Source: Gammaproteobacteria bacterium (GTDB taxonomy: Bacteria > Pseudomonadota > Gammaproteobacteria > SZUA-229). Taken from it: a stretch of 64,000 nucleotides of DNA. Every line of letters begins with the position of its first letter. Position 1 is the stretch's first letter. The DNA is taken from NCBI GenBank assembly GCA_026195895.1, contig JAPHRO010000052.1, positions 1-64,000 of the forward strand, read 5' to 3'. The position numbers and the translations under genes were made by a program. Below are positions 36,595-40,417 of this stretch, one piece after another. A model generated the notes under the pieces. That model made no database searches, was not told the origin of the DNA, and saw only the letters and a program-made list of their open reading frames with translations.

Positions 36595-37098
36595 ATGAAT
36601 TATGACGATGTAGATTTGAACGCTCAGGCCAGACAACTGGGGCAGTTTCTAGTTGAGAAAAAGTTAAAAATGGCCACTGCTGAATCCTGTACAGGTGGCT
36701 GGGTATCTAAATCAATAACCGACCTTGATGGCAGCTCCAACTGGTTTGAATGCGGTCTGGTGACATACAGCAATCAGGCAAAACAGGACTTTCTTGGTGT
36801 TAGCGCGCAAACGCTTCTCGATCATGGCGCTGTCAGCCAACCGGTGGTTAAAGAAATGGCTCTTGGATTACTGGATCGATGCAATGCTGATATCGGTGTT
36901 TCGATTAGTGGTGTCGCCGGACCCGGTGGCGGTAGTGACGACAAACCAGTTGGCACTGTCTGGATCGCCTGGGCCAAACCCGGCGAAGTGATTGAAGCCG
37001 TAAAATTCAAATTTGATGGTGATAGAGAGGCGGTACGCAGGCAGGCAGTATCTGAAGCCTTGTTGGGAGTGCAACGATTACTGGAACAGACCTGTTAG
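36595..37098 (+). CDS. pncC: CinA-family nicotinamide-nucleotide amidohydrolase
   Basis: KMATAESCTGGWVSKSITDLDGSSNWFECGLVTYSNQAK; SGVAGPGGGSDDKPVGTVW. Confidence 0.93.
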   Translation: MNYDDVDLNAQARQLGQFLVEKKLKMATAESCTGGWVSKSITDLDGSSNWFECGLVTYSNQAKQDFLGVSAQTLLDHGAVSQPVVKEMALGLLDRCNADIGVSISGVAGPGGGSDDKPVGTVWIAWAKPGEVIEAVKFKFDGDREAVRRQAVSEALLGVQRLLEQTC

Positions 37099-37179
37099 AT
37101 GGGTTCATATTGATCGTCGGATTATGAAAACTGGTGCTGAGTAGTTTGTGTAGACAAAATAAAATACTGGTTAAAACAC

Positions 37180-37728
37180 ATGAGTGACGGCAACAATCAT
37201 CGATTATTTTTCGCCCTGTGGCCCGACGGTATTACACGTCAAAAAATCGTGGAGGAATTTAATCAATCAGCGCAGGCTGAGACACCGGGTCGATTAATGA
37301 AAGCAGGCAACATACACATGACACTGCATTTTATTGGGAACGTATCGCAACAATTACTGAAATGTATGGATGATGCGGCAAAAAATGTATCGGCTAAAAA
37401 ATTTCATTTGCAAATAAATCATTATGGATATTTTTACCAGCCGAAAGTGCTCTGGATGGGGGTGGAGAAAATACCGGAAGCCTTAAAACATCTGCATGAC
37501 AAGCTGGAAATTGCATTAAGGCAATGCGGATATAAAGCTGATAGAAGAATTTTTTCTCCGCATATCACCTTAAAACGAAAAGCGCTGAATCCTGGCCCAC
37601 TTGAAACCTTTCCCGCCATTGACTGGTCTGTTGACAGCTTTGCACTGGTCGAGTCAATACCAGTTGTGGATGGCGTTAAATACGAAGTGATACGATCTTA
37701 TGATCTTGTTGAACCGAAAAACGTATAA
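37180..37728 (+). CDS. thpR: RNA 2',3'-cyclic phosphodiesterase (2H family)
   Basis: Two H-x-T motifs: HMTLHFIGN and HITLKR. Confidence 0.9.
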   Translation: MSDGNNHRLFFALWPDGITRQKIVEEFNQSAQAETPGRLMKAGNIHMTLHFIGNVSQQLLKCMDDAAKNVSAKKFHLQINHYGYFYQPKVLWMGVEKIPEALKHLHDKLEIALRQCGYKADRRIFSPHITLKRKALNPGPLETFPAIDWSVDSFALVESIPVVDGVKYEVIRSYDLVEPKNV

Positions 37729-37748: not shown

Positions 37749-38630
37749 CTAGAGAAATGCCCAACCGGCAAACGGCTCTATTTCATCGCGATTTACCACT
37801 ATCAGTTGATAAGCATTAGGGTTTAAAGAATGATCTGTTGTTGTGTCTACTGACATCTGCTGTAATAAATAACCCACCATTGCCCGCCTGACCTGTATTT
37901 CAATCAGATCACCCACCATATCGTAGTCATAACTCAATGCTAAACGTTGCTTTACTGTGAGTCCGGGGTGGGGCCTTAACTGGATACTGATGATTTCCAT
38001 CCAGTCATCATCGTAATTCGGACTGGACTCTGCCTTAGTCGGCAATAGCTCTCCCTCAACCACTCGAGACAGAACAAAATCGCGAAAATCGTAGGTATCG
38101 TGACTGTAGGCACGAATATGCCAGCGTAACCCGTTATTGACTATGGCATGGGGTTCGATGATGCGACTGCTACCGCTTTGCCGATCTGACAGGGAGTGAT
38201 AGTTAACTCGCAATTGTCGATGCGCTTTGATAGCGCGGATTATCTGGGCAAGCACTGACTGGGCAGGTAAACGACTGGGCAGGGGGAGCTTATCCGTAGC
38301 AATGCCATATACCTGCTTGTCCTCGGATGGGTTTTTAACACTGATCAGGTTATTCGCGATCATGGGTAAAACGGTCGCTGGACTGAGATCGGCAAACATT
38401 TCGGTAAAATTAGCTTCCGGAATAAAACCGAAAACACCCGGGTCGTAAACCAGATTGCCAGGCGCCAGATCATTGTAGAGCTTGAGATCCTTGGTCGCGG
38501 CTGGATCTGAAATGCCAAAGGTTCTGGCCAGGCCACTGCGGCTGATCGAGCCGGTGTAGTAAGCCATGATTTCAATGAATTCCAATCGCTGACGTGTTGC
38601 CCATTTTATGTCGATAGATAATTTTGCCAT
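37749..38630 (-). CDS. WYL-domain transcriptional regulator, BrxR/CapW-like (wHTH-WYL-WCX)
   Basis: N-terminal RQRLEFIEIMAYYTGSISRSGLARTFGISDPAATKDLKLYNDLAPGNLVYD; WYL-domain RQLRVNYHSLSD..RIIEPHAIVNNGLRWHIRAYSHDTYDFRDFVLSRV. Confidence 0.85.
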   Translation of the reverse strand: MAKLSIDIKWATRQRLEFIEIMAYYTGSISRSGLARTFGISDPAATKDLKLYNDLAPGNLVYDPGVFGFIPEANFTEMFADLSPATVLPMIANNLISVKNPSEDKQVYGIATDKLPLPSRLPAQSVLAQIIRAIKAHRQLRVNYHSLSDRQSGSSRIIEPHAIVNNGLRWHIRAYSHDTYDFRDFVLSRVVEGELLPTKAESSPNYDDDWMEIISIQLRPHPGLTVKQRLALSYDYDMVGDLIEIQVRRAMVGYLLQQMSVDTTTDHSLNPNAYQLIVVNRDEIEPFAGWAFL

Positions 38631-38683
38631 CGTATTTGCTGCTAATCCGTAATTTTGACATGAGCATAGCATATTCATATCAG

Positions 38684-38716
38684 CTATATAAAATATAGTA
38701 GGTGATATAATATATC
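38684..38716. promoter_or_regulatory. Tandem AT-rich palindromes in the WYL-regulator/recA intergenic region
   Basis: CTATAT-AAA-ATATAG (38684-38698) and GATATA-A-TATATC (38704-38716). Confidence 0.4.
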
Positions 38717-38828
38717 GACATGATAAATAATATTGACATATGAAATTATATGCACTAATCTATTTTCAAACACAGCCAGTAAACATTCATTACGGCAATT
38801 ACCAACATAGATACAGCAGGGGATAACA

Positions 38829-39899
38829 ATGGACGAAAACAAGAAAAAAGCACTTAGCGCGGCTCTGGGCCAGATAGAAAAACAATTTGGTAAAGGTTCC
38901 GTCATGCGCATGGGCGATGCCGGTGCCGCCAACGATATCCAGGTAGTATCTACCGGTTCCATCGGTCTGGACGTAGCTTTAGGCATAGGCGGCTTACCTC
39001 GCGGCCGTGTTGTCGAGATCTACGGCCCTGAATCCTCGGGCAAAACAACACTCACCTTGCATGCCGTAGCTGAAATGCAGAAAGCGGGCGGCACCGCGGC
39101 GTTTGTTGATGCGGAGCATGCTCTGGATCCGCTTTATGCTGAGAAGCTGGGTGTGGATGTCGATGAATTGCTGGTTTCTCAGCCCGACACCGGCGAGCAG
39201 GCACTGGAAATCACCGACATGCTGGTCCGTTCTGGCGCAGTTGATATAGTGGTGGTTGACTCCGTGGCCGCACTGACGCCAAAGGCAGAAATCGAAGGTG
39301 ATATGGGTGATTCTCACATGGGCCTGCAGGCGCGCCTGATGTCACAGGCCTTGCGTAAACTTACAGCCAATATCAAACGTTCCAATACCCTGGTTATTTT
39401 CATCAATCAGATCCGTATGAAAATAGGCGTTATGTTTGGTAATCCTGAGACCACTACCGGCGGTAACGCACTGAAATTCTATTCTTCAGTACGCCTGGAT
39501 ATACGCCGCACAGGCGCCATCAAGAGAGGCGATGAAATTATCGGCAACGAGACCAAGGTTAAAGTCGTCAAAAATAAAGTGGCGCCACCGTTCAAAACCG
39601 TTAACTTCGAAATTCTTTACGGTGAAGGTATTTCCCATCACGGTGAAATCATCGACATGGGTGTAGCACACAACATCATCGAAAAAGCCGGCGCCTGGTA
39701 TTCATACAAGGGTGAAAAAATTGGCCAGGGCAAAGATAAGGTACGCACTTATCTGAAGGAAAATCCTGAAATCGCTGACGAAATCGAAACCCAGATAAGA
39801 GATATCCTGTTACCTGCAAAGACTTCAACTAAAGAAAAGACAGCAGAAGCTGAAGGTCTGGATATGAATCAGGACTTCGCTGAACTGATAGAGTCCTAA
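38829..39899 (+). CDS. recA: Recombinase RecA
   Basis: [13 protein letters not shown] Walker [43 protein letters not shown]. Confidence 0.99.
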
Positions 39900-39973: not shown

Positions 39974-40417
39974 GTGAGTCGATCAATTTCAGAAACTGCT
40001 GTAGCTATGCTGGCCAGGCGAGAACATTCTGTGTTCGAGGTAAAACGCAAACTCAGACAAAAAAACTTCGAAGATGCCGAAATTGATTCGATCATCGAAC
40101 AATTACAGGCAAATAATTTACTGTCAGAAGAGCGTTTTACCGAAAGTTATATTAATATGCGCAAGCGCAGGGGGTATGGGCCGTTACGCATCGCTCAGGA
40201 ACTCAAGGAGCGGGGCATTGAAACTGATCTGTATGAGCCGTTTCTGGATAGAACTAATCAGGAATGGCACAACATCATGCAGCAGCAGTATCTAAAAAAA
40301 TACGGCGATCAACCCGCCGCCGAATATGCAGAAAAAGCCAGGCGAGCGAAGCATTTACAAAGTCGTGGATTTCCACTGGACTGGGTATTCAGACTAAACG
40401 AACTGGATATATCCTAA
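39974..40417 (+). CDS. recX: Regulatory protein RecX
   Basis: MLARREHSVFEVKRKLRQKNF; RGYGPLRIAQELKERGI; position just downstream of recA. Confidence 0.93.
   Translation: MSRSISETAVAMLARREHSVFEVKRKLRQKNFEDAEIDSIIEQLQANNLLSEERFTESYINMRKRRGYGPLRIAQELKERGIETDLYEPFLDRTNQEWHNIMQQQYLKKYGDQPAAEYAEKARRAKHLQSRGFPLDWVFRLNELDIS

Follow-up and report, generated by a model that had tools for sequence, protein, structure and literature searches.

We consider it probable that recA in the 64,000-nucleotide stretch analyzed here (the window, from a 3.3-Mb, 99% complete assembly of a relative of gammaproteobacterial MAGs) is under LexA-independent control of a dedicated repressor of the BrxR/CapW type, which would act as a homodimer on an operator array, regulate its own gene, and be released by single-stranded DNA (ssDNA). 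In the textbook SOS response, LexA control of recA is central; here, recA appears opposite a dedicated WYL gene, without a LexA site and with predicted sites over its promoter, an arrangement that seems to recur in many environmental proteobacteria. The argument draws on what can be read from the sequences: the family of the protein, conservation of its pocket and DNA-reading helix, synteny, a candidate array and its overlap with the recA promoter, the co-occurrence of array and gene, and the absence of LexA motifs. The preliminary description of this DNA had correctly placed a WYL gene on the minus strand, divergent from recA on the plus strand, and the locus reads as follows.

36595..37728, plus strand: cinA and thpR, the usual neighbors of the WYL gene on its side away from recA
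37749..38630, minus strand: recA-linked WYL regulator, 293 aa, with wHTH, WYL (with RWH motif), and WCX
38829..39899, plus strand: recA, 356 aa, the inferred target (TIGR02012, E 2e-174)
39974..40417, plus strand: recX, next after recA and often kept in synteny

The genes alaS and lysC lie further downstream of recA and recX in the window. The open reading frame of the WYL gene could begin at 38678, and we took the ATG at 38630 as the likely start because ortholog similarity begins there.

The protein is a full-length wHTH-WYL-WCX regulator of the BrxR/CapW family, which bears out the layout that had been recognized beforehand. In phmmer searches against the PDB, the best solved relative was the CapW of S. 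maltophilia (E 1e-40, full length), BrxR matched at E 1e-37, also over its full length, and the family ranged from E 1e-40 to 1e-34; the other best solved relatives were P. aeruginosa CapW, the ssDNA-bound R. leguminosarum CapW 9c5g, and two BrxR. PF13280 is present, and PADLOC and NCBIfam returned no specific name. With the AlphaFold model (mean pLDDT 85), fold matches 1 to 15 were all BrxR/CapW chains (E 1e-24, TM about 0.55), followed by DriD and PafBC; the rmsd to these chains was about 15 Å, which we attribute to domain orientation. Residues Y145, S147, R169, W170, H171, R183, D184, and R189 (S. maltophilia CapW numbers), proposed to bind the ligand in CapW (PMC9122588), are found in 94/94 unique recA-linked orthologs, and a histidine replaces the WYL tyrosine in the ligand pocket of all 94, with conserved Y, S, R, R, R. 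The DNA-reading helix is likewise invariant, with S42/A45/T47 in each of the 94; the S42, Q45, and S47 of CapW and Acinetobacter BrxR, a combination that most solved BrxR/CapW share, were found in none of them, and this S-Q-S helix does not define the whole BrxR/CapW family, BrxR 7qfz having A, V, and T. The recA-linked WYL proteins form one clade with moderate support (SH-aLRT 87) and belong to a slowly evolving chromosomal branch of their own within the family. Of note, a second WYL protein of the host genome is encoded near a gene resembling a Cas3-type HD domain (translation inspected by eye) and is perhaps a CRISPR-associated regulator.

A survey of ortholog neighborhoods, suggested in the preliminary description, recovered the divergent arrangement almost everywhere. 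A scan of GTDB contigs gave 80 orthologs with 56 to 70% identity, from Thiobacillus, Hydrogenophilales, Ectothiorhodospiraceae, Thiotrichaceae, Chromatiales, and Legionellales records; recA is divergent from the WYL gene and adjoins it in 79 of them, and the exception (L054) lies on a contig that stops 92 bp away, before any recA. The gene is carried by 23 of 370 genomes evenly sampled from the host's class (all at E 1e-109 or below, followed by matches no stronger than E 1e-49), and all 23 carriers, which span 13 families, have it divergent from recA. A phylum sample of 398 genomes yielded three matches at E 1e-60, all from the same class as the host. Pairwise distances between WYL proteins of 27 loci track those of recA (r 0.76) and alaS (r 0.69), which suggests mostly vertical descent. 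A mobile origin was considered and rejected, as no close ortholog was found in viral contigs, phages, or plasmids: the best of 687 plasmid records with WYL relatives reached 36% identity, none exceeded 60%, and phages gave three weak relatives. The recA-linked branch thus behaves like part of the chromosomal core genome. No BREX, CBASS, or other defence genes were found beside the WYL gene in the window or its orthologs, where the neighbors are cinA, thpR, recA, recX, alaS, and lysC.

The region between the two genes was compared in a gap-free alignment of 82 unique WYL-recA intergenic regions. Conserved blocks (AATAnAAAnTATTA, GTAnATTnTAT, TAGGTGATAAAAAnTATTGACAT, and AAATGTATnnCCTAnAnT) emerged, with TA-N5-TA boxes repeated every 17 to 18 bp. 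Self-similarity has its maximum at lag 18 (0.48 versus about 0.32 at other lags), and the window's own sequence reaches 0.54 at this lag (shuffle p 0.014). The AT-rich dyad array has fixed G/C positions and extends into the spacer of the recA promoter. Its elements in the window are listed below; those with no strand are so marked.

38684..38698, no strand: array box 1, palindrome CTATATAAAATATAG (82-region alignment)
38687..38761, plus strand: whole predicted operator array and recA core promoter (match to model R1, E 8e-11)
38704..38716, no strand: array box 2, palindrome GATATAATATATC with TA-N5-TA core (82-region alignment)
38705..38733, no strand: predicted 29-bp operator dyad centered on 38719, imperfect in the window, ending at the -35
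38722..38735, no strand: array box 3 (TGATAAATAATATT), which reaches into the -35 of recA (82-region alignment)
38733..38738, plus strand: recA -35, TTGACA, essentially invariant in the 82 regions
38739..38755, no strand: array box 4, a half box within the 17-bp spacer and up to the -10 (alignment)
38756..38761, plus strand: recA -10, TAATCT (TAnAnT in the family), N17 after the -35

The R1 match is the sole significant one in the host genome. Two tandem palindromes had been described earlier; both are present, and they turn out to belong to a longer array, as its boxes 1 and 2. The promoter-like pair proposed at 38655-38683 must be abandoned, as it is not at the conserved position, which for the recA promoter is 38733-38761. 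In close relatives, and strictly in those only, the central dyad is perfect (ATACTTTTTATCA-ACA-TGATAAAAAGTAT). Boxes 3 and 4 cover the recA -35 and spacer in silico, and such an overlap of dyads with the target promoter is a mark of the BrxR/CapW family. In Thiobacillus, box 1 also overlaps a predicted TTGTAT-N16-TATAAT promoter of the WYL gene, with the box at the -35; no clear counterpart of this promoter was seen in the window. Scored with a profile built without any member of the host's own family, and with the -35 hexamer disregarded, the window's region stood 9 SD above dinucleotide shuffles. A column-permutation dyad test was weak, with centre 42 within the background and centre 24.5 about 2.5 SD over the mean and under the maximum, and the case for the array therefore rests on conservation, period, and co-occurrence with the gene; periodicity and conservation are likewise what suggests the multi-box reading.

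Our current working hypothesis, in which binding, repression, ssDNA release, and cooperativity are inferred, is that homodimers of the WYL regulator occupy the 18-bp-period dyads, probably cooperatively, on and between the two divergent promoters, that of the WYL gene and that of recA. Occupancy would keep the sigma-70 recA promoter, which is near consensus, at low activity and would also restrain production of the regulator itself. Upon damage or stalled replication, exposed ssDNA would enter the WYL pocket and move the wHTH domains out of register, the operators would be vacated, and recA would be expressed independently of LexA cleavage and of the RecA co-protease. A near-consensus promoter with predicted operators over its -35 favors repression. 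The counterpoint is that the distant WYL proteins known to act at recA are activators (PMC11804915): in mycobacteria, PafBC works at the recA promoter, and DriD reportedly regulates recA in Caulobacter. The regulator might thus resemble them, with an ssDNA-bound protein upstream of the promoter recruiting RNA polymerase, and boxes 1 and 2 do lie upstream of the recA -35. We regard this as unlikely: boxes 3 and 4 occupy the -35 and the spacer, the nearest relatives, CapW and BrxR, are repressors, and PafBC matches the WYL domain only (E 2.5e-5). With an invariant TTGACA, a spacer of 17 bp, and a good -10, the recA promoter should need no activator. Neither close homology of the PafBC/DriD type nor an activator-dependent promoter was found at this locus, DriD being matched by fold only and the recA promoter being near consensus.

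If repression is the right reading, the releasing signal is likely ssDNA, by analogy with CapW and BrxR, repressors that let go upon ssDNA binding (PMC13373217, PMC9122588); this property would be carried over from relatives at 29 to 33% identity. For WYL domains, binding of RNA and of other ligands has been reported as well (PMC9122588), and the repressor might respond to another nucleic acid or to a small molecule. There is little to recommend such a signal, given that the pocket has the residues of CapW, among them those of the homolog whose structure contains ssDNA, and that for recA the natural cue is ssDNA.

Array and gene go together. At E 0.001, model R1 matches 23 of the 370 class genomes, exactly the carriers and with one site each, and none of the 347 non-carriers. 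The sensitivity of R1 is partly built in because the model was trained on carrier loci; the zero in non-carriers is not. In the host's own family (54 genomes), all nine carriers match at about E 1e-10, and the 45 non-carriers gave no match at a comparable score and none better than E 0.001. Within each of the mixed families (f1, f33, f39, f58, f103, f108, and f109), the array goes with the WYL gene. These counts bear on another reading of the AT-rich block, as a UP element or a site for nucleoid proteins at a strong recA promoter, with the WYL protein controlling only itself. RNA polymerase alpha subunits often contact AT-rich sequence upstream of the -35. However, the block occurs without the WYL gene in none of the 347 class genomes and, at a comparable score, in none of the 45 own-family non-carriers, and it has fixed G/C positions, an 18-bp period, and a reach into the promoter spacer, all of which makes this reading very improbable.

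A 31-bp single-dyad model (R2) was run over 27 carriers, and the recA site was the best match in nearly all carrier genomes with a score. Matches at E 0.0033 or better were recA sites only (19 genomes). A wider regulon was rejected, the non-recA matches in the 27 carriers being scattered and near chance (E 0.018 or weaker). Since R2 gave recA sites alone, the predicted repressor looks dedicated to recA and its own gene.

The absence of CTGT-N8-ACAG from the divergent region, noted beforehand, was confirmed: no exact copy occurs between the WYL gene and recA in the window, and the closest match is CTATTTTCAAACACAG, with 1 mismatch, about 69 bp before the recA start. Such 1-mismatch matches occur at about chance frequency, and neither exact CTGT-N8-ACAG nor the alpha-like GTTC-N7-GTTC was found in 94 carrier recA promoters; both motifs were rejected as absent or at chance level. 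A genome search for LexA and its motif, also suggested earlier, did find a LexA-like protein, whose cleavage and catalytic residues are intact on inspection. It is diverged (TIGR00498 E 1.5e-49, versus about 1e-56 to 1e-87 for the canonical type), and the promoter of its own gene carries GAAT-N7-GAAT in the host and GAAC-N7-GAAC in relatives. The GAAC-N7-GAAC sites resemble the alphaproteobacterial LexA motif. Both forms are absent from the host's recA region. That a lineage-specific LexA of this kind controls recA, with the WYL gene as a bystander, is hardly credible, for besides these absences three of the 23 carriers have a canonical LexA (G085, G110, and G228) and still no LexA box at recA, and a bystander would not remain next to recA in 13 families.

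Other arrangements exist among relatives. Non-carrier relatives have a LexA box in three of the promoters read and often a different extended -10 promoter, such as TCTGTGTGATAATC, instead. In the host's own family, non-carrier recA promoters share TCTGTGTGATAATC, often carry an upstream GGnCTATCTG, and have no LexA box; the TCTGTGTGATAATC promoters are perhaps a third, constitutive type of recA promoter. In place of the WYL-recA pair, one relative (G027) has a LexA-like gene immediately upstream of recA and codirectional with it.

The earlier idea that a defence-type WYL regulator controls recA instead of or beside LexA thus has good comparative support, with one change. Synteny in at least 13 families, co-occurrence of gene and array in 370 genomes, and the lack of an exact LexA motif in 94 promoters argue for WYL control; the change is that the protein is placed in its own recA-linked branch and not as a defence regulator. 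The literature searched, with most subscription papers outside the search, describes no WYL gene dedicated to recA. We give roughly even odds to a broader proposal, that in a large set of proteobacteria recA is fully off LexA and its expression is set by a dedicated ssDNA-sensing WYL repressor from an old core-genome branch of the family that also serves BREX and CBASS, with LexA, where present, running the rest of SOS. If true, recA induction would be uncoupled from RecA activity, with ssDNA itself as the trigger, inducible recA without a LexA box would be explained, and the antiphage regulators BrxR and CapW would be tied to a housekeeping DNA-repair ancestor or descendant. Direct testing is possible because cultured carriers exist (Thiobacillus denitrificans and T. 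thioparus).

Compared with known systems, the predicted circuit shares with LexA and SOS a repression of recA expected to lift on damage, with autoregulation; it differs in that recA has no LexA box and the sensor would be responding to ssDNA, not to the RecA filament. PafBC of mycobacteria is also an ssDNA-responsive WYL protein at a recA promoter, but it is a heterodimeric activator with sigma adaptation, and its sequence similarity is confined to the WYL domain. Caulobacter DriD resembles the proposed regulator as an ssDNA-sensing WYL protein in a LexA-independent damage response with reported recA regulation, whereas it is an activator and a distant homolog (Foldseek E about 1e-9, 14% identity) and is not known as a dedicated neighbor of recA. 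BrxR has the same family and fold and an AT-rich inverted-repeat operator, ATACCGTAAAAATAATTTACTGTAT in Acinetobacter (PMC9122589); operator sequence and period differ from those predicted here, and the recA locus has no defence genes. CapW shares the architecture, the fold, the WYL pocket with RWH, and dyad operators, here predicted, over the promoter of the neighboring target. Unlike CapW, with its S-Q-S helix and its defence operon, the regulator described here has an S-A-T helix, is chromosomal and slowly evolving, and would act through a multi-box array on recA.
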